Source: Planctomycetia bacterium (GTDB taxonomy: Bacteria; Planctomycetota; Phycisphaerae; Phycisphaerales; SM1A02). From it: a stretch of 64,000 nt of DNA. The notes below the pieces were generated by a model that was given only the letters and a program-made list of their open reading frames with translations, did no database searches and had not been told where the DNA came from. A program made the translations under genes and the position numbers. The DNA lies in contig SXUI01000057.1 of NCBI GenBank assembly GCA_005790605.1, positions 1 through 64,000 on the forward strand, in the 5' to 3' direction. The number at the start of each line of letters is the position of its first letter. Within the stretch, counting starts at the first letter, position 1. Shown here piece by piece: positions 7,206 through 35,584 of this stretch.

Positions 7206-9042
7206 GCAGGCGCCTCGCGCGAAGCCAGAGTTCGAGGATCAGCATCGGCCAGAGTCGATAAATCGAGAAGTGATTCGGGTCGCGTTGCTCAAGGACAAAT
7301 CGACTGAGGGCATCGCCGTCGAGATGGTTGCGCAGCGCCGCATCGCGGCCAAGTGAATCCTCGGCGAGTTTCAATAGCTCAGACTGCGACCAGCAGTCTG
7401 ACGGAAGTCCAAACCCCATCTTGCGCCGCTCCATCCACTCGCGTGGGAGATACTCTGCCGCGAGTTCTTTCAAAATGCGCTTTGTTCCAGTTGGCGGCTC
7501 CCAGAGCAATGCGTCGGGAAGAGTCGCCGCGAAAGATCCAAGCTCATGATCCAACAGTGGGCATCGCACCTCAAGCGAGCACTGCATGCTCATGCGATCA
7601 ACCTTTGGCAACACGGCGCCGGGCATATAGGTGTAGGCATCGAGTGCGCGCATTCGCTGCATCGGCGTGCGTGATTCATCACTCAAGAGTTCGCGCCAAT
7701 CCTGAAGGTGTCGCGCGGCCGTTGCAGGGAGAGGCGTGCCGAGCAACTCTTCGACGCGTTCAGGCTGGAACATCAGCCAGCGCGGCCCGAGGTAACGATC
7801 CGCGACCGTTGTCACGCGATCTCCCTTGGCGAGCAGCTTCAGTCGAGTGAGATACCCAACCCCATCAGCCGCAGTCTCATTGAGTGTGTCTTTGTAGCGG
7901 CCGTAGCCGCCGAACAGTTCATCGCCCCCATCGCCACTCAGCGCAACCGTGACGAACTGCCGCGTAAACCGCGACAACAGGAGCGTGGGCAGGCATGATG
8001 AGTCGCCATTTGGCTCATCGAGCCTCGCGGCGATGTCAGGCAACATCCGCATCGCGTCAGGCGTCAACACATCATCGCGGTGGTTCGTTCCGAGCATGCG
8101 CGCCGTATCGCGAGCAAACAAGTGCTCGGTCGCATTCGGATCGTCAAAGCCCATGGAAAAGGTGTCAACTTTTTTCCCGAAGTCCTTCGCCATGATGGCA
8201 ACCACGAGTGAACTGTCGACACCGCCCGACAGAAACGCGCCGAGCGGAACATCACTTTCAAGCCGCTTCTCAACCGCGCGACGAACCAATCGACGAAGTT
8301 CATCCTTTACCTCCGTTGGCGTGCGCTTCGTTTCCCCACTGCGCTTGGGGGAGAAAGAGTAGAAGCGCTCAGTCTTGCGCTGCCCTGATGCAAGATTGAT
8401 CGACATCGCGTGGCCAGGCGGAAGTTTGCTGAGACCTTCGTAGATACCGAGTTCAACCGGCATGTACTGGACCAAGAGATACGCCGCGATTGCGTCGCGC
8501 GAGACTTTCCGATTGAGAAACGGCAGCTGTTCGAGTGCGCGAAGTTCACTCGCGAAAGCCACGAATCCTCCGCCCTCGGCGATGAACAGCGGCTTCTTTC
8601 CGAAGGGATCGCGTGCGAGCACAAGGGTTCGGGCGCGCTCGTTCCATGCGGCAAAGGAGAACATCCCGTCAAGGTCCTTGCACTGCACAAGCTTGGGATC
8701 TTCAAACATGTGCACGAGCACTTCGGTGTCGCTGTTGGAACGAAACGCGTGCCCCTTCGCTTCTAACTTCGCTCTCAGATCATGGTGGTTGTAGATCTCG
8801 CCATTGAACACAACCTGCACAGAGCCGTCTTCGTTCGCCATCGGTTGTCGACCATGCGCGCGGAGATCGATGATCGAGAGCCGCCGATGCGCAAGCGCGA
8901 CGCGTCCATCTTCCGACACCCAAGTCGCGCCGTCATCCGGACCTCGATGCGTCATGCTGTCACGCATCCGAGTGGCGAGCCGCGAGATCTCTTCTCGGCC
9001 GAGGCCAAGACCGATGTCAAGAAGTCCAGCGATGCCACACAT
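7201..9042 (-). CDS. asnB: Glutamine-hydrolysing asparagine synthase-type amidotransferase
   Basis: This 613-residue enzyme has both halves of the AsnB family. The N-terminal class II glutaminase begins with the nucleophile Cys2 (MCGIAG) and carries THRGPDD, RRLSIIDL and NGEIYN. The synthetase half has the ATP PP-loop SGGVDSS at 272-278 and SGDGGDELFGGY near 369-380. It transfers glutamine-derived ammonia to a carboxylate activated by ATP. The substrate may be aspartate, but homologues beside glycosyltransferases often amidate sugars or surface polymers, and here glycosyltransferase, methyltransferase and Wzt-like genes follow. It lies 40 nt downstream of a small membrane-protein gene on the same strand. 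Its stop codon falls within a repeat palindrome. Confidence 0.92.
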   Translation of the reverse strand: MCGIAGLLDIGLGLGREEISRLATRMRDSMTHRGPDDGATWVSEDGRVALAHRRLSIIDLRAHGRQPMANEDGSVQVVFNGEIYNHHDLRAKLEAKGHAFRSNSDTEVLVHMFEDPKLVQCKDLDGMFSFAAWNERARTLVLARDPFGKKPLFIAEGGGFVAFASELRALEQLPFLNRKVSRDAIAAYLLVQYMPVELGIYEGLSKLPPGHAMSINLASGQRKTERFYSFSPKRSGETKRTPTEVKDELRRLVRRAVEKRLESDVPLGAFLSGGVDSSLVVAIMAKDFGKKVDTFSMGFDDPNATEHLFARDTARMLGTNHRDDVLTPDAMRMLPDIAARLDEPNGDSSCLPTLLLSRFTRQFVTVALSGDGGDELFGGYGRYKDTLNETAADGVGYLTRLKLLAKGDRVTTVADRYLGPRWLMFQPERVEELLGTPLPATAARHLQDWRELLSDESRTPMQRMRALDAYTYMPGAVLPKVDRMSMQCSLEVRCPLLDHELGSFAATLPDALLWEPPTGTKRILKELAAEYLPREWMERRKMGFGLPSDCWSQSELLKLAEDSLGRDAALRNHLDGDALSRFVLEQRDPNHFSIYRLWPMLILELWLRARRLP

Positions 9043-28380: not shown

Positions 28381-29937
28381 ATGTCTGACGCATCCCCTGC
28401 ATCGAATTCTGCCGCCGCTCCAAAGAAGATGGATGACATCGTCGCGCTGTGCCGTCGACGGGGCTTCATCTTTCAATCATCCGAAATCTACGGAGGCATC
28501 AACGGATTCTGGGATTACGGCCCGCTTGGTACTGCGCTCAAGCGCAATCTCAAGAACGCATGGTGGAACGATGTCGTCGAGCGCGAACTCATCGGTCCAG
28601 ATGGCACTGCGATCGACATCGTTGGTCTCGATTGCACGATCATCATGAACCCAAAGACTTGGGTCGCGTCTGGACATGTTGGGGGATTCAACGACCCGAT
28701 GGTGGATTGCAAGGAGAGCAAGTCCCGCTATCGCGCCGATCACTTAGTCGTGCTCGGCTCATTGTCCACCGGTGCGCGCCTCTATGCCGTTGTGCAAGGC
28801 GACGAGGCGCAGATGGCTGCCGCGTCCAAGGCGCTCACTCGATATGAAAAACGCGACACGCTCGATCCAACCGTCCATGTGGTCCGCGCATTCACAGCGC
28901 TCACCGCGGAGGAGCGCGCACGCACGATGGGACCGCACGCGAAGGAAGTTGGCACGCTGACGGAGCCACGCCAGTTCAACCTCATGTTCGAGACGCACTG
29001 TGGTGCGATTCGCGACGAGAACTCACTGGCCTACCTCCGACCCGAAACCGCTCAGGGCATATTCGCGAACTTCTGGAATGTGTGCGATTCCACGCGTGTT
29101 CGTGTGCCCTTCGGCATCGCGCAGATCGGCAAAGCATTCCGGAACGAAGTCACGCCGCGAAACTTCACCTTCCGCAGCCGCGAGTTTGAGCAGATGGAGA
29201 TTGAGTTCTTCATTCGACCAGACAGCGCCAACGAGTGGTACAAGTGGTGGCGCGACTGGCGCTTTGCGTGGTGGCAGAAGATCGGACTCACGAGCGAAAA
29301 CCTGATTCTGCGCGAGCATGATCGTGATGAGCTCGCGCACTACGCGAAGGCTGGCGCCGGGACGAGCGATATCGAGTACCGATTCCCCTTTACCGCGCCG
29401 GGCTATGGCGAACTTGAAGGCATCGCGCATCGAGCCGACTTCGATCTCAAGGCGCACGCCACGCACTGCGGAAAGGGCGACAAGATGCGCTACTTCGACC
29501 AAGAGAAGAATGAGCGCTACTTCCCGCATGTAATCGAACCATCGGCGGGCGCTGACCGCGGCGCGCTTGCATTGCTCTGCGAGGCGTACACCGTCGATGC
29601 CTCGCGCGCATCGGGTGTGTTCATGCGATTCGATCCACGCATCGCGCCGGTGAAAGCCGGTGTGTTCCCGCTCGTGAATAAGGACGGACTTCCGGAAATC
29701 GCGGAGCGAGTCTTCCGCGACCTTCGCAAGCACCACTCGGTCGAGTTCGATGAGAAACAATCGATCGGGAAGCGGTACGCTCGCATGGACGAAGCAGGCA
29801 CGCCATTCTGTATCACGATTGATCACGATGGCGCAGCCAACGGAACCGCGACGGTTCGTCACCGCGACACGCAAGCGCAAGAACGAGTGGCGCTTGACCA
29901 AATCCCCCGCTTTGTTGCTGAGCGAGTCGGAGGCTAG
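28381..29937 (+). CDS. glyS: Glycyl-tRNA synthetase, homodimeric type
   Basis: The 518-residue class II synthetase charges tRNA-Gly. It is the alpha2 form rather than the alpha2beta2 form. Landmarks are GFIFQSSEIYGGINGFWDYGPLG at the N-terminus, motif 2 FRNEVTPRNFTFRSREFEQME, and the ETAQGIFANF segment. The C-terminal anticodon-binding domain begins RIAPVKAGVFPLVNKDGLPE and ends with a redox-neutral tail. The length is typical of the family. Position 28381 is the natural ATG. It is convergent with the M28 fusion gene, and the two coding ends overlap by 4 nt (29934-29937). Confidence 0.95.
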   Translation: MSDASPASNSAAAPKKMDDIVALCRRRGFIFQSSEIYGGINGFWDYGPLGTALKRNLKNAWWNDVVERELIGPDGTAIDIVGLDCTIIMNPKTWVASGHVGGFNDPMVDCKESKSRYRADHLVVLGSLSTGARLYAVVQGDEAQMAAASKALTRYEKRDTLDPTVHVVRAFTALTAEERARTMGPHAKEVGTLTEPRQFNLMFETHCGAIRDENSLAYLRPETAQGIFANFWNVCDSTRVRVPFGIAQIGKAFRNEVTPRNFTFRSREFEQMEIEFFIRPDSANEWYKWWRDWRFAWWQKIGLTSENLILREHDRDELAHYAKAGAGTSDIEYRFPFTAPGYGELEGIAHRADFDLKAHATHCGKGDKMRYFDQEKNERYFPHVIEPSAGADRGALALLCEAYTVDASRASGVFMRFDPRIAPVKAGVFPLVNKDGLPEIAERVFRDLRKHHSVEFDEKQSIGKRYARMDEAGTPFCITIDHDGAANGTATVRHRDTQAQERVALDQIPRFVAERVGG

Positions 29938-32390
29938 TCCAAGCACACGCCGGTGCAAAGATCGTTGCCGAACGCATCCCAGTCATCGAGCATCCACACG
30001 ACACGCTTGTCGCGTGTGGCCTCGATCATCTGAGGGTTGTCGCGACCGGCATGTGTGTTGCCGAACACGATGTTTCCATTGGGCATGACTTGCAGTGTGG
30101 TCACCCAGCAGAGGTGAATCGGACGCCCATCTGGACGCCGCAACTCGTCGCGTTCAACCGACCAAACGGTTTCCTTCTTCGGGTTCACTTCGAACACACG
30201 GTTGTTGTTCCCCCCAGCAATCAACGTGTTTCCACTCTTGAGGCGAAGTGCGTTGAAGACACTCGTGCCATGTCCATCATGACCCCCAGTCGCGGGCTGG
30301 TCATGCAGATCGAGCTTGTACTCCCACACGATTGCGCCTTTTTCGTCGTACTCGCGCACAAGGCCAAGTCCCTCATGGCAAACGAGATAGGTCCCCGCAT
30401 CAGTCTTTCGAACTCTGCGCGTGTCACGGTGGGAGTCTGGTTGCTCCACCGTGAGTGGCACATTCTTCACTATCTCGCCCTTTGCGTTGACCTCGAGAAC
30501 TCGAAGGTTCCCAGTTTCTGCGATGAGCGTATTGCCATTACTCAGCCGCTCAAATGCGTGAATCTCAACGCGCCCCGCGTAGGGCGGGACAGGCACGCTC
30601 TTCCACTCCCACACAAGGTCGTTCATCGGCGTCACTTCCATGATGCGGTCAGGCGCAGGATGGAGCAGGACATTGCGGTTGGGAAGCGCGGCAAGGTCGT
30701 GCGAATTGTGAGGGCAGTCCAGTTTCCATGTCACTGCGCCCGAGGCCTCGCGAATCACAACGCGACCCTTGTCCTGACCGATCACGCGATGCTCGATGAA
30801 ACCGTACTTCGATCGAATCTTCTTGAGCGTGCCGTCTGCTTCCATCGCCACCAACTCCGCCGAAACGCGCTCCGCGATTGAGGCGTCTTGCTTTCGGAAT
30901 GCATACACACTTGATTGCGGCTCAAGCAGGAGTGCCTTGACTGTCGAATCACGCTTCGCCCGAACAGTTGCCGCGGCGTAGTCCATGATGAAGGCGTCGA
31001 GCTTGCCCTGAGCGAGCCCACTGACGATCGCGCCAATGGGTTCACCCGATGCATATCGGGAAGCCTTTGGAAGCTGCGCCTGTGTCCATGTATCAAAGCC
31101 GCTCGATGGAGCAGCAAACACGCGTGCCCCATCAAGCGAGGCTCGCGTCCACGCCGCATCGGCCTTGACAAGCGCGCCGACGCCATCCGCACAAAGGTAC
31201 GGCGTCGTGCATGCAATCTCGTCAGCCCGAGCATGCATGGCGAAGAAACCATCCGCGATCACATCAATCTCGCCGTCGCGCAGCGCGGACTCTTCTCCGA
31301 GTGGAGACACGAACTTCGCGTCGACGGTCCAGCCCAACCGCTTCGCGAGCTCATCCCAGACCTCCGCATCTATGCCGCGATCACGTTGTCGACGCGAGGT
31401 TGCGTTCCAAAATGGCGCGGCCTCGCGTGGTCGGCCCAATCGAAGCGTGCGCGTCTTCGCATCGAGAGCCGATGCGTCGAGAGGCGACTTGTCGAATCGC
31501 GGCGGCATCTCCTTCGCGTAGGCACGCACAGCGTTCGTGACAAGGGTCGCGACCTTCGCCGCAAGTCCGCAGTCTGCGAGTGCCGCCTCATCACTCACCT
31601 TGTGATAGTCCTCGTGATCCTCGCAACTAAAGAGAACGGCGGGAATCCCTACCGAAAGAAACGCGCCCTGATCGCTGCGCTGCAACCAATCCGGATGCGT
31701 ATCCACGACCATCGGCAACTGCGCATCGGGAGCGAGACGCGTGAGCAAGTCAACGAGCACCTTTCCTGTCGGTCCGCCGTCGAGTCGGATCGCGCCATCG
31801 GGTGCGCGCGAGATCATGTCCATGTTGAACACCGCTCGAATTCGCGCGAGCGGAAGAATCTCCTCTTCCACAAACGCGCTACTTCCAACGAGACCTGCCT
31901 CTTCTCCGGTGAATCCGACGAACACGACACCAACGCTGAGCGCGTCTTTCTGCAGGGCCTGAGCGACCGCGATCATGCCGCAGACCCCGCTCGCGTTGTC
32001 GTCCGCGCCGTTGTAAATGCGATCCTCACCGCTCTTCGCATTCGAAAGATGGTCGTAGTGCGCAGTTACGAGGATGAACTCACCCGAAGAAGGTTGATCG
32101 GTCGCGCTCGGGGGGAGCCATGCAACGACATTGGGACTCGCCGCAGGTTGGCGTGCGATTGGAATCAGCATGGAGTCCCGCTCGGAGATGGGCTTCGCCC
32201 CAGCCGCTGCAAACTTCGCGGCGACCCACGCAGCGGCGCGCTTTCCATCTTCGCTGCGATAGGAGCGCCCATTCATCGCGTCGCTCGCGAGGTCCGCAAG
32301 ATCGGCGCAGATGCGAGTGGAATCAGGCGCAGCCGACGGTGGTGTGACCTGCGAGAGAACGAGTGCAACACACGCGAGAATCTGCAGCAT
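29934..32390 (-). CDS. Secreted M28 peptidase / solute-binding / beta-propeller triple fusion
   Basis: The 818-residue exported protein has a signal peptide at 1-20. Residues 24-295 are an M28 zinc aminopeptidase with a full ligand set: H111 (TAHYDHLS), D130 (GADDNASG), E163 as base and E164 (FTGEEAGL), D191 (NMDMIS), H263 (DYHKVSD). Residues about 325-530 resemble a type-3 extracellular solute-binding domain: LAKRLGWTVDAKFV, GEIDVIADGFFA, TTPYLCADGVGALV. Residues about 540-818 form a repeat propeller (NRNVLLHPAPDRIMEVTP, NGNTLIAETGNLRVLEVN, SGNTLIAGGNNNRVFEVN), similar to arylsulfotransferase/PQQ propellers. I know of no standard family with this order. It probably releases and binds amino acids or peptides outside the cytoplasm. 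Confidence 0.82.
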   Translation of the reverse strand: MLQILACVALVLSQVTPPSAAPDSTRICADLADLASDAMNGRSYRSEDGKRAAAWVAAKFAAAGAKPISERDSMLIPIARQPAASPNVVAWLPPSATDQPSSGEFILVTAHYDHLSNAKSGEDRIYNGADDNASGVCGMIAVAQALQKDALSVGVVFVGFTGEEAGLVGSSAFVEEEILPLARIRAVFNMDMISRAPDGAIRLDGGPTGKVLVDLLTRLAPDAQLPMVVDTHPDWLQRSDQGAFLSVGIPAVLFSCEDHEDYHKVSDEAALADCGLAAKVATLVTNAVRAYAKEMPPRFDKSPLDASALDAKTRTLRLGRPREAAPFWNATSRRQRDRGIDAEVWDELAKRLGWTVDAKFVSPLGEESALRDGEIDVIADGFFAMHARADEIACTTPYLCADGVGALVKADAAWTRASLDGARVFAAPSSGFDTWTQAQLPKASRYASGEPIGAIVSGLAQGKLDAFIMDYAAATVRAKRDSTVKALLLEPQSSVYAFRKQDASIAERVSAELVAMEADGTLKKIRSKYGFIEHRVIGQDKGRVVIREASGAVTWKLDCPHNSHDLAALPNRNVLLHPAPDRIMEVTPMNDLVWEWKSVPVPPYAGRVEIHAFERLSNGNTLIAETGNLRVLEVNAKGEIVKNVPLTVEQPDSHRDTRRVRKTDAGTYLVCHEGLGLVREYDEKGAIVWEYKLDLHDQPATGGHDGHGTSVFNALRLKSGNTLIAGGNNNRVFEVNPKKETVWSVERDELRRPDGRPIHLCWVTTLQVMPNGNIVFGNTHAGRDNPQMIEATRDKRVVWMLDDWDAFGNDLCTGVCLD

Positions 32391-32444: not shown

Positions 32445-33908
32445 TCAACTCCTGACCTCATCCCAGATTTTGTGCTGATGCGTCTCTTTCAAGAACACGC
32501 AACCCACAACGAATGTCAGTGCCGCGATGCCCATCGGATAGTAAAGCCCCGCGTAGATGTCGCCAGTCGTCGCGACGATGGCGAGACCGATGAGAGGAAG
32601 AAGTCCGCCGAAGATGCCGTTGCCGATGTGGTACGGAAGCGAGAGCGCCGTGTAGCGAATGCGCGCGGGGAACGCTTCAACGAGGTATGCGGCGATGGGG
32701 CCGTACACCATCGCAACGAAAATGAGCTGCACAAAAATGAATCCAACGAGCATCCACGCCGAGGAAGTCGCGAAGAGCGTCGAGAGGCCTTCATAGGGGA
32801 GCACTTCAGACGCGTTCACCAACGCGCCGTCAACACTCGATTGCGGAGTCAACCGCACGGCGCCAGTTACTGCGTCGCGAACGGAGGTCACCGTTGACAC
32901 CTGCGAGCCTGCCGCCCACTGCATGCCCTTGTAGATAGGAATATAGAAACATACTGCGAGAAGGCATCCCGCCATCATGATCTTCTTGCGGCCGATCCGA
33001 TCGGACAAACTCCCGAACAGAATGAAGAGCGGCATGCCGAGCAACAGCGCAACAGCGACGATGCAATTTGCGCTTGTGGAGTGCACCTTGAGAATCGTCT
33101 GGAGATAAAAGAGCGCGTAAAACTGTCCCGTGTACCAAATCACGCCCTGCCCCGCGGTCGCCCCAAACAGTGAAATGAGCACGCGCTTGAGATTGGCCCA
33201 CTGCGTGAATGCTTCTTTGAGCGGAGCACTTGATGTCATCCCCTTTGTCTTGAGATGGTCGAGAATCGGCGACTCTTGCATTCGCATTCGAATGTAGAGC
33301 GAGATGCCCACGAGGAAGATGGAAATCAAGAACGGCACGCGCCATCCCCAGGACTTGAAGGCCTCTACTCCAAGCATGCTCTGCACGAAGAAGATGACAA
33401 TGAGCGAGAGAAAGAGGCCAAGCGTTGCAGTGATTTGTATGAAGCTCGTATAGAACCCGCGCTTGTTGTCGGGCACATGTTCGGCGACATACACAGCAGC
33501 GCCGCCGTACTCGCCGCCGAGCGCAAAGCCTTGCATCACGCGGATGAGCAACAGTGCAATCGGCGCTGCATAACCAATCGTCGCGAATGTCGGGAGCACG
33601 CCGACGACTGCTGTCGCGCCACCCATCACAATGAGCGTGACGAGAAACGCGTACTTGCGGCCGACCACATCGCCGATGCGGCCGAAAACAAGCGCGCCAA
33701 AGGGCCGGACAACGAATCCAACAGCAAAGGTCGAGAGATACGCGACGAGCGCCCAAGTGTCATTCCCGCTTGGGTAGAAGAGAGGAGCGATGATCGTCGC
33801 GAGACTTCCAAAGATGTAGAAGTCGTACCACTCGATCATCGTCCCGACCGAAGAGGCTGCGATGACCTGCCAAAGACGCGCGCGTGAGACCGTAGATTCG
33901 GATGGCAT
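32445..33908 (-). CDS. MFS metabolite:H+ symporter (MHS family)
   Basis: The start at ATG 33908 (487 residues) replaces an upstream GTG frame. It has twelve transmembrane segments. Hallmarks are SSVGTMIEWYDFYIFGSLA in helix 1, the loop GRIGDVVGRKYAFL, RVMQGFALGGEYGGAA, and SLSDRIGRKK between helices 8 and 9. These define the ShiA/ProP/KgtP branch, which imports organic acids, osmolytes or amino acids with protons. An insertion of about 55 residues in the second half (VSTVTSVRDAVTGAVRLTP...) forms an enlarged extracytoplasmic loop, seen in some relatives. The substrate is unknown. Confidence 0.9.
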   Translation of the reverse strand: MPSESTVSRARLWQVIAASSVGTMIEWYDFYIFGSLATIIAPLFYPSGNDTWALVAYLSTFAVGFVVRPFGALVFGRIGDVVGRKYAFLVTLIVMGGATAVVGVLPTFATIGYAAPIALLLIRVMQGFALGGEYGGAAVYVAEHVPDNKRGFYTSFIQITATLGLFLSLIVIFFVQSMLGVEAFKSWGWRVPFLISIFLVGISLYIRMRMQESPILDHLKTKGMTSSAPLKEAFTQWANLKRVLISLFGATAGQGVIWYTGQFYALFYLQTILKVHSTSANCIVAVALLLGMPLFILFGSLSDRIGRKKIMMAGCLLAVCFYIPIYKGMQWAAGSQVSTVTSVRDAVTGAVRLTPQSSVDGALVNASEVLPYEGLSTLFATSSAWMLVGFIFVQLIFVAMVYGPIAAYLVEAFPARIRYTALSLPYHIGNGIFGGLLPLIGLAIVATTGDIYAGLYYPMGIAALTFVVGCVFLKETHQHKIWDEVRS

Positions 33909-33997
33909 GCATCCGAAGTCTAATGCGACGACACTCTTCCGCGTGTGCAAGGCTCATGCGGAGTCCGAACCCAGGAAGTCTTCATTCGTTCGGTCAG

Positions 33998-35584
33998 TTA
34001 GCTGCACGGCCCCCACGCGCTGAGCAGAATTGCAAGGTCAGCCGCGCCCACGAATCCGTCGCAATCAAGATCAGCGACGCAGGCCGACTTTCCACACGGT
34101 CCCCATGAAGCGAGCAGGATCGAAAGATCCGCGGCAGCCACAGCACCGTCGAGATCAAAGTCCGCGAGGCAAGAGGGCGCAATGGGAATAAGGACATACG
34201 CGACTCCTGGCAAGTAGTCCTCCGGCGCCGCAGTCGCGATGATCCATCCGTCTGCGTTGACGCCATGTGCCTGCGTCAGATTGAGATCAGATCGGCCCGT
34301 CAATTCATCGAGCGCGACGCCAGTCCAAACTCCAGTATCAGGTGAGAGAAGCCATCGAACCGCCTTGCGACGCGAAGTCTGCGTTGAGTCGATCTCAGTC
34401 AGCGTGCCGACTGCGGTCTCGCCTCGGATCGCGCCATCGAGAACATCGTTGCTCACAAATTTCGCTCCCTGCACAGTGCTCGCCTCGTGCTCGTACCCTG
34501 AGGCGACAGGAAGGTGGCCGAGGTAAACCGGTGAAGTGCCAAGCGAGTTCCACACCGTCGCGTAATCCTCGCACTGATCACACGCTCCCGAATCGATATT
34601 GCATGTGAGATCCCACGGCGCTCCGTATGGATCTACACCTCCGCCCTGCGCGTGACCGTAGAGATGAGGCGTGGAGCGCGCGAAGATCGCAACACCGCGA
34701 GGCGTGTCTAGTTCGCCGTCGCTGGAACATCTTGTCCACGATCCGTGCGGAACAACATGCCTTGGTTCGCCTCCATCGTAGACGAGTCCCCACTCCGCAT
34801 CGAAACAGAGAGAAACGGTGGTGCCTTCGCCTTCACACAGCGTTGGATCTTCGCATCGATAACCGTAACCAATACCGGCGGGATCGCCATGCTCCCGCGC
34901 GAGAAGCGCGTGAGCGGTGGTTGCCGCATTTTCTGAATAGTGGATCTCGGATCCACCGCCATCGAGTCTCGTGCCGCCGGACAACGCAAGCGGCCCATCT
35001 CCCGCCAATAGGCTCCACTTTGTGCCTCGCCGAGGCCGAATCGCTGCGCACTTCCAGCGCGCGGTCCCAAACATTGTTTGCCCGTCATCAGCAATCGCGA
35101 ATGCCGCACTTCCGAGCGCGCCAATCGCCGGCATGCTCCAATCTTCCTCCGAGCGCCACGCAGCTGCGATGGGCTCAAAACCTTGGCCTCCGCCACCGAT
35201 GTATCCAACCACGACCGGATCTATACCTTCCGATAGGTCGCACGAAGTTGTCATCAATCCACCGGCAGTGAGTGGAATCGCAAGTGGGTATGTCACGCAG
35301 TGGGCCGAGATCGTCGGGAACACGATCTCGGCGAGCCGAATCCCCGCGCTCTCGGGCAAGTTGCCGGAGATGATCCCGTGGTCATTGATCGCCCATCGCC
35401 CCTGGTCCATGCCGAACTCGCCGCTGTAGACCGCCTGCTCCATCGCAGGGCCGAGTTCGACGACCCGATACTGCTGTTCAGCTACTGCGCCGCTCGAGTT
35501 TGCGAGAAGTGTGAGGATGATCGATCCAGCGGCGGGAGAGCAACGCCAACAACTCAAGAACCGATGTGGAATCTGTGCATCCAT
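33998..35584 (-). CDS. Secreted protein with paired dockerin-like C-terminus
   Basis: ATG 35584 is preceded by GAAGGATGG. The 528-residue product has a signal peptide (IILTLLANSSGAVA) and a long region with autotransporter/HAF-like motifs: WAINDHGIISGNL, AFAIADDGQTMFGTA, AHGVNADGWIIATA. The last 65 residues carry two dockerin-like loops, DFDLDGAVAAADLSILLASW and DLDCDGFVGAADLAILLSAW, ending WGPCS. A Cys just before the first loop and one after the last could form a clasp. No catalytic residues are evident. Its function is probably surface display or cell-envelope association. Confidence 0.75.
   Translation of the reverse strand: MDAQIPHRFLSCWRCSPAAGSIILTLLANSSGAVAEQQYRVVELGPAMEQAVYSGEFGMDQGRWAINDHGIISGNLPESAGIRLAEIVFPTISAHCVTYPLAIPLTAGGLMTTSCDLSEGIDPVVVGYIGGGGQGFEPIAAAWRSEEDWSMPAIGALGSAAFAIADDGQTMFGTARWKCAAIRPRRGTKWSLLAGDGPLALSGGTRLDGGGSEIHYSENAATTAHALLAREHGDPAGIGYGYRCEDPTLCEGEGTTVSLCFDAEWGLVYDGGEPRHVVPHGSWTRCSSDGELDTPRGVAIFARSTPHLYGHAQGGGVDPYGAPWDLTCNIDSGACDQCEDYATVWNSLGTSPVYLGHLPVASGYEHEASTVQGAKFVSNDVLDGAIRGETAVGTLTEIDSTQTSRRKAVRWLLSPDTGVWTGVALDELTGRSDLNLTQAHGVNADGWIIATAAPEDYLPGVAYVLIPIAPSCLADFDLDGAVAAADLSILLASWGPCGKSACVADLDCDGFVGAADLAILLSAWGPCS

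Follow-up and report, generated by a model that had tools for sequence, protein, structure and literature searches.

Is there a planctomycete protein that joins a peptidase, a solute-binding domain and a beta-propeller on one chain, and if so, what might it do? This question is raised by a gene on contig SXUI01000057.1 of a Planctomycetia bacterium (assembly GCA_005790605.1), within the stretch of 64,000 nucleotides that was analyzed and is called the window below. An earlier note, drawn from the sequence alone, had read an M28 peptidase, a type-3 solute-binding protein (SBP) domain and a repeat propeller in one frame, and had proposed that the protein couples peptide hydrolysis to capture of the product on the cell surface or in the periplasm. 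We find that the protein is a new order of known parts. As to its role, we give about an even chance to an M28 zinc aminopeptidase that is exported and helps to scavenge peptides outside the cytoplasm, with the SBP domain sensing or holding the product and the propeller binding substrate or a partner.

Three domains in one frame

The gene (29934..32390, minus strand; 818 amino acids) is defined by its frame, by Pfam, by an AlphaFold2 model and by the same domain order in relatives. It runs from an ATG at 32390 to a stop at 29934 in a single frame of 818 codons, as the earlier note had stated, and neither stop nor frameshift lies between its domains. Since the codon immediately 5' of the ATG is TGA, a longer in-frame start is excluded. 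At its other end, the gene overlaps by 4 bases with the end of a convergent open reading frame (ORF; 28381-29937). All three domains named in the note were found by Pfam, by matches to PDB entries and by AlphaFold2 together with Foldseek, with domain profile matches far above chance level. Among PDB sequences, the first part matches 1amp and related entries, the second proteins that bind glutamine or histidine, and the third 3no2, and the top Foldseek matches span all three parts as well (3no2 at 7.2e-21, 1amp at 9.1e-16 and 6svf at 3.1e-13). The model itself, built on 48 sequences from the window and the related loci, reached a mean predicted local distance difference test score (pLDDT) of 88.5 and a predicted template modeling score (pTM) of 0.68. 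Residues 324-337 form the only run of at least three residues with a pLDDT below 50.

No Pfam or NCBIfam model spanning the whole protein was found, which agrees with the note's remark that no named family has this order. The NCBIfam matches were partial, stayed below cut-off and belonged mostly to amino-acid SBPs and aminopeptidases. Likewise, no paper describing the fusion was found in the open-licence literature.

Seven other related genomes hold the same order, one of them in a frame-split copy. The eight genomes are thus that of the window, G001, G002 (frame-split), G003, L002, L003, L004 and L005 (truncated by the contig at its 5' end), where G and L are our handles for genomes and loci and G003 was taken as the genome of L001. 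Because the domain order recurs in other assemblies, an assembly join of separate genes is ruled out. Two further members, L006 and G071, have the M28 and SBP domains alone and end after the latter; L007, whose contig ends inside the M28 domain, stands outside the fusion counts. The G002 copy (L107:9098-11772, minus strand) is split between two frames within the part that codes for the SBP domain, and a run of residues appears in both. The split looks like the result of a short tandem duplication or of a fault in the assembly, and we took it as a local exception.

The initial search for relatives took the best 80 of 598 matching stretches. In addition, 392 genomes were drawn from the phylum, of which 59 matched at E 1e-40; the rows shown have two scored candidates for each genome, so the survey may overlook fusions that are partial or distant. 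Among these 59, only the window genome and G071 match across both the M28 and the SBP domain, and G030 and G433 match by the M28 domain alone; the remaining 55 match on the propeller side, and this survey shows the family of the propeller to be common across the phylum. In phylogenetic trees, all seven fused propellers of the set group together (support 100/99), and the M28 tree places the two members with only two domains next to L004 (97/93). The simplest reading, which we infer from these trees, is one gain of the propeller followed by one later loss.

The peptidase domain and its neighbors

The M28 di-zinc aminopeptidase domain (residues 27-296; 31503..32312, minus strand) was delimited by Pfam, by alignments to 1amp and 2ek8 and by VIA-align. 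Peptidase_M28 (PF04389) matches residues 87-286 (E 5.9e-34; 117.9 bits against a cut-off of 21.3), and VIA-align superposes this part on 2ek8 with a Z of 33.8 and a root-mean-square deviation (rmsd) of 2.0 over 254 aligned residues. In the alignment to 1amp, an aminopeptidase of Vibrio proteolyticus, H111 corresponds to H97, D131 to D117, E163 and E164 to E151 and E152, and D191 to D179, which we take to comprise the metal ligands and the catalytic glutamate of 1amp; H263 pairs with a histidine of 2ek8. All residues of the zinc set in the earlier note (H111, D130, E163, E164, D191, H263) are present, but the bridging aspartate is D131, not D130 as the note had it, since D131 aligns to D117 of 1amp. 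Both aspartates occur without exception in all 24 M28 rows that were aligned. Within the family, H111, D130, E163, E164 and D191 are kept in all eight members that hold this part and H263 in nine of nine, the window included; this nine-row comparison leaves out G002, and L005, which lacks its 5' part, counts only for residues that it holds. From its sequence, the domain is very likely catalytic, and it would trim N-terminal residues from peptides.

M28-type glutaminyl cyclases are structurally close, for example 7d1b (Z 30.5) of Fimbriiglobus ruber, which we take to be a planctomycete. Nevertheless, we consider it improbable that the domain is such a cyclase instead of an aminopeptidase, given that the top Z of 33.8 belongs to an aminopeptidase, that sequence comparison ranks aminopeptidases higher (1amp at 6.8e-09 against 0.0023 for the one cyclase listed) and that every residue aligned to the di-zinc ligands is retained.

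Residues 1-21 (32328..32390, minus strand) resemble a signal peptide when read by eye, with a hydrophobic core and small residues before the likely cut, though without a positive charge at the start in the window protein; the AlphaFold2 model places a helix at residues 2-11. Export of the protein is plausible on this basis, and of the surface or periplasmic location proposed in the earlier note we retain only that an exported location is plausible.

Use of the M28 domain in peptide scavenging is likely. An S46 dipeptidyl-peptidase gene lies directly upstream of the fusion gene in L002, where it is cut by the contig start, and in L004 (Pfam 8.9e-72 and 1.4e-192, respectively), which points to peptide scavenging. 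In each of these genomes it is the sole S46 found; S46 occurs in two of nine searched fusion genomes and both times directly upstream of the fusion; among the controls of both searches, it occurs in 2 of 14. The genomes of L005 and L007 stood outside the S46 search as well as the permease search described below. At the same place in L007, an ORF shares its N-terminus with the S46 of L004.

The propeller

The six-bladed beta-propeller (residues 534-818; 29937..30791, minus strand) was recognized by Pfam, AlphaFold2 and VIA-align; its blades were counted from the strands of the model, and the C-terminal strand closes the ring. The Mala_s_1-like model (PF22701) matches residues 601-778 at E 8.1e-12 (45.7 bits against a cut-off of 27.5). 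Modeled alone, the propeller reached a pLDDT of 94.1 and a pTM of 0.90. In VIA-align, residues 533-818 superpose best on 3no2 (Z 30.2, rmsd 2.3, 259 aligned), followed by Cpz4 (9kf4; Z 23.1, rmsd 3.0, 257 aligned), AssT (3ets; Z 21.7) and then designed and NHL propellers. Thus the repeat propeller of the earlier note is borne out by a Pfam match above cut-off, by the blades of the model and by 3no2.

Arylsulfotransferase activity was considered from Pfam and fold. The Arylsulfotran_2 model scores 22.4 bits in the window protein, below its cut-off of 27, whereas L004 scores above it, as do the propellers encoded downstream of the fusion gene in L002 and L003 (see below). The WQHD motif of Cpz4, whose histidine we take to be catalytic, aligns to W762-V763-T764-T765 and places T764 at the histidine position, in a weak stretch with an i-Evalue of only 0.16. 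A sulfotransferase role may be less likely because of this threonine, weak as the alignment is. A review names His436 in EcAST (PMC13426309).

The face formed by the D-A and B-C loops carries several near-invariant polar residues. Over 25 rows, polar residues (tryptophan included) kept at 85% or more number 12 of 103 in these loops, compared with 4 of 55 on the opposite side (A-B and C-D loops), and mean loop identity is 0.715 for A-B, 0.702 for B-C, 0.589 for D-A and 0.513 for C-D. This conservation is suggestive only of a face through which the propeller might present substrate or a partner protein.

Other members of the propeller family occur in two settings. All four long-ORF members scanned with Pfam join the propeller to cytochrome-type modules known from planctomycetes, two of them to PSCyt1 with PSCyt2 and PSD1 and two to PSCyt1 with DUF2231 (L112:7628-12016, L146:4433-9442, L147:5901-8120 and L149:3505-6957). 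Furthermore, a second, distant propeller (30-36% identical) is encoded directly downstream of the fusion gene at L002:3376-4146, L003:5178-5957 and L005:1974-2720. In L004, the ORF at 8469-8939 has a similar SRCPFF motif and no propeller match.

The solute-binding domain and known systems

The type-3 SBP domain occupies residues 313-531 (30798..31454, minus strand). SBP_bac_3 (PF00497) matches residues 319-529 with 66 bits, where its cut-off is 26.4 (E 3.6e-18), and in Foldseek this part is matched by the arginine-binding protein 6svf with a TMt of 0.79, so that both profile and fold support the middle domain. On the whole model, no SBP chain is among the 50 VIA-align matches listed, and the fold assignment consequently rests on Foldseek. 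The window protein has both R388 and D470, which align to residues of GlnH (4f3p) and HisJ (1hpb) that, we assume, contact the carboxylate and the amino group of the bound amino acid. Such a domain would clamp an amino acid set free by the peptidase, or else a carboxylate of a similar kind. D470 is kept in eight of the nine aligned members and R388 in five, the window included in both counts.

Several observations count against our account, here and in the search for a transport partner below. R388 is missing in L002, L004, L006 and G071, four of nine rows (in L004, an insertion in this region makes the alignment less sure), and ligand binding may therefore not be general. The SBP domain is also the fastest-evolving part, with 66% identity to G003 compared to 86% for the M28 domain and 85% for the propeller. 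Of the four pairs for which the ratio of nonsynonymous to synonymous substitution rates (dN/dS) was estimated, L003-L005 gave 0.31 for the SBP domain against 0.20 and 0.17 in the neighboring domains; all such figures are rough, because synonymous sites are near saturation. The relative placing of the three domains, with a pTM of 0.68, is only moderately sure as modeled, and the two faces of the propeller differ modestly in conservation. The searches gave no S46 in the four genomes of the window's genus (G000-G003), nor in three of the five others searched (G071, L003, L006), and in L003 a different gene lies upstream of the fusion.

The SBP domain might accordingly be a spacer that is losing its ligand binding while peptidase and propeller do the work. 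The lowest identity and highest dN/dS among the three domains, the absence of R388 from four members and the poorly predicted loop 324-337 all fit this idea, which we regard as doubtful. Within the genus, three pairs gave a dN/dS of only 0.12-0.24 for the SBP domain (0.04-0.08 in the other domains), so it is still under selection, and R388 and D470 are retained in the three intact members of the genus and remain readable in the frame-split copy of G002.

Type-3 SBPs normally serve ATP-binding cassette (ABC) permeases for polar amino acids. The usual form of the note's idea would thus be an SBP domain that captures released amino acids and delivers them to an ABC importer, in favor of which one can cite the SBP_bac_3 fold and the R388/D470 pair of the window. 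The corresponding permease model, TIGR01726, had no match in five genomes (G000-G003 and G071, the window genome included). A second search found it in two of five genomes, G071 being repeated, with one match each in the genomes of L004 and L006 and none in those of L002 and L003. Consequently, it is missing from seven of nine distinct fusion genomes, the window's included, whereas the same model matched 11 of 14 control genomes. The two genomes that do hold the permease are both among the four without the SBP arginine, and the other two of these four hold none. The window assembly is rated 99.02% complete, and ABC permeases of other kinds are present (nine BPD_transp_1 matches). Polar-amino-acid uptake systems were reported to be common in both classes of lake planctomycetes (PMC6461901), which favors an importer and sits uneasily with the absence of TIGR01726 here. 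On balance, delivery to such an importer appears very improbable. Of the product capture proposed by the note, the SBP domain is real; capture itself is weakened by the missing permease, by the limited retention of R388 and by F383, which replaces the pocket threonine of GlnH.

In the window's genus, another carrier is encoded next door. An MHS-type metabolite/H+ symporter of the major facilitator superfamily (MFS; 32445..33950, minus strand), recognized by TIGR00883 (9e-103; 344 bits, below the cut-off of 443) and by comparison of neighbors, lies 54 bp upstream of the window gene. In all four genomes of the genus, its gene immediately precedes the fusion gene and shares its strand, with gaps of 21-54 bp. 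Together with the lack of the usual class of ABC permease in the genus, this could suggest that the SBP domain hands its amino acid to the symporter as an SBP-dependent MFS carrier. We rate this as very unlikely indeed: no ORF matching the symporter was seen in L002-L007, in G071 the gene directly adjoins one asparagine-synthase-like gene and one with a DNRLRE domain, and we know of no MFS carrier that needs a binding protein. We favor an SBP domain that would act as sensor or holder of the product and would not serve an ABC importer as its receptor; other carriers, this symporter for example, would then take care of uptake. From the sequence, retention or sensing of the product is possible; what we infer beyond the peptidase is how the SBP domain and the propeller function.

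By analogy, the SBP domain could even be a built-in Venus flytrap that closes on a released amino acid and thereby switches the aminopeptidase of its own polypeptide, a tentative idea that we hold to be unlikely. If it were true, both type-3 SBP matches of the window genome would be sensors fused to effectors, one to a peptidase and one to a channel-like protein, and neither a transport receptor. The only other SBP_bac_3 match in this genome (E of 0.001 or below) is a 385-aa ORF (G000:C73, locus L155:3956-5113, minus strand) in which two SBP-like halves, one of them recognized by Pfam and all else read by eye, enclose hydrophobic stretches that contain TVGYGD; its make-up presumably resembles that of GluR0-type channels, the prokaryotic glutamate-receptor potassium channels. 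Should the SBP domain bind an amino acid, an exported peptidase would here be reading its own product, and the fold of a transport receptor would have been put to new use in the absence of its transporter.

Farther upstream, 47 bp from the symporter ORF, lies a 528-aa ORF (33998-35584, minus strand) with two dockerin-like C-terminal repeats seen by eye. It has no Pfam match at E 0.01 and is absent from the 67 matches to the GC-type dockerin model (dockerin_GC) in the 3.0 Mb window genome, 29 of which are over cut-off. Since dockerins are common in this genome, such adjacency means little. In the lake-planctomycete genome study, cohesin/dockerin complexes are proposed to degrade peptides, and the family Nemodlikiaceae is described as having more components for amino-acid and oligopeptide uptake as well as extra amino-acid auxotrophies (PMC6461901). 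The same study also names a metagenome-assembled genome ZH-13MAY13-plancto44, identical to the isolate name of L002. The window protein is a defined, testable case for how these planctomycetes may use peptides.

Compared with known systems, each part of the protein has clear relatives. The M28 domain resembles the leucyl aminopeptidase of Vibrio proteolyticus (1amp) and the Aneurinibacillus aminopeptidase (2ek8) in fold and metal-site residues; to our knowledge neither of them bears an SBP domain or a propeller, whereas the window protein bears both. The SBP domain has the fold of GlnH, HisJ and PF00497, with R388 and D470 at their contact positions, but differs from GlnH and HisJ in being fused to a peptidase and in F383 at the GlnH threonine. 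SBP domains of the glutamate-receptor type gate channels, whereas that of the window would gate a peptidase. The propeller finds its best match in sequence (profile E 1.7e-31) and fold in BACCAC_01654 of Bacteroides caccae (3no2), which in contrast is a single domain with no assigned function, and it shares its fold with the arylsulfate sulfotransferases AssT and Cpz4. Other planctomycete propellers, whether they stand alone or are fused to PSCyt1, PSCyt2, PSD1 or DUF2231, belong to the same family with at most 54% identity to that of the window; they are joined to cytochrome-type modules or to nothing, and not to a peptidase like that of the window protein.

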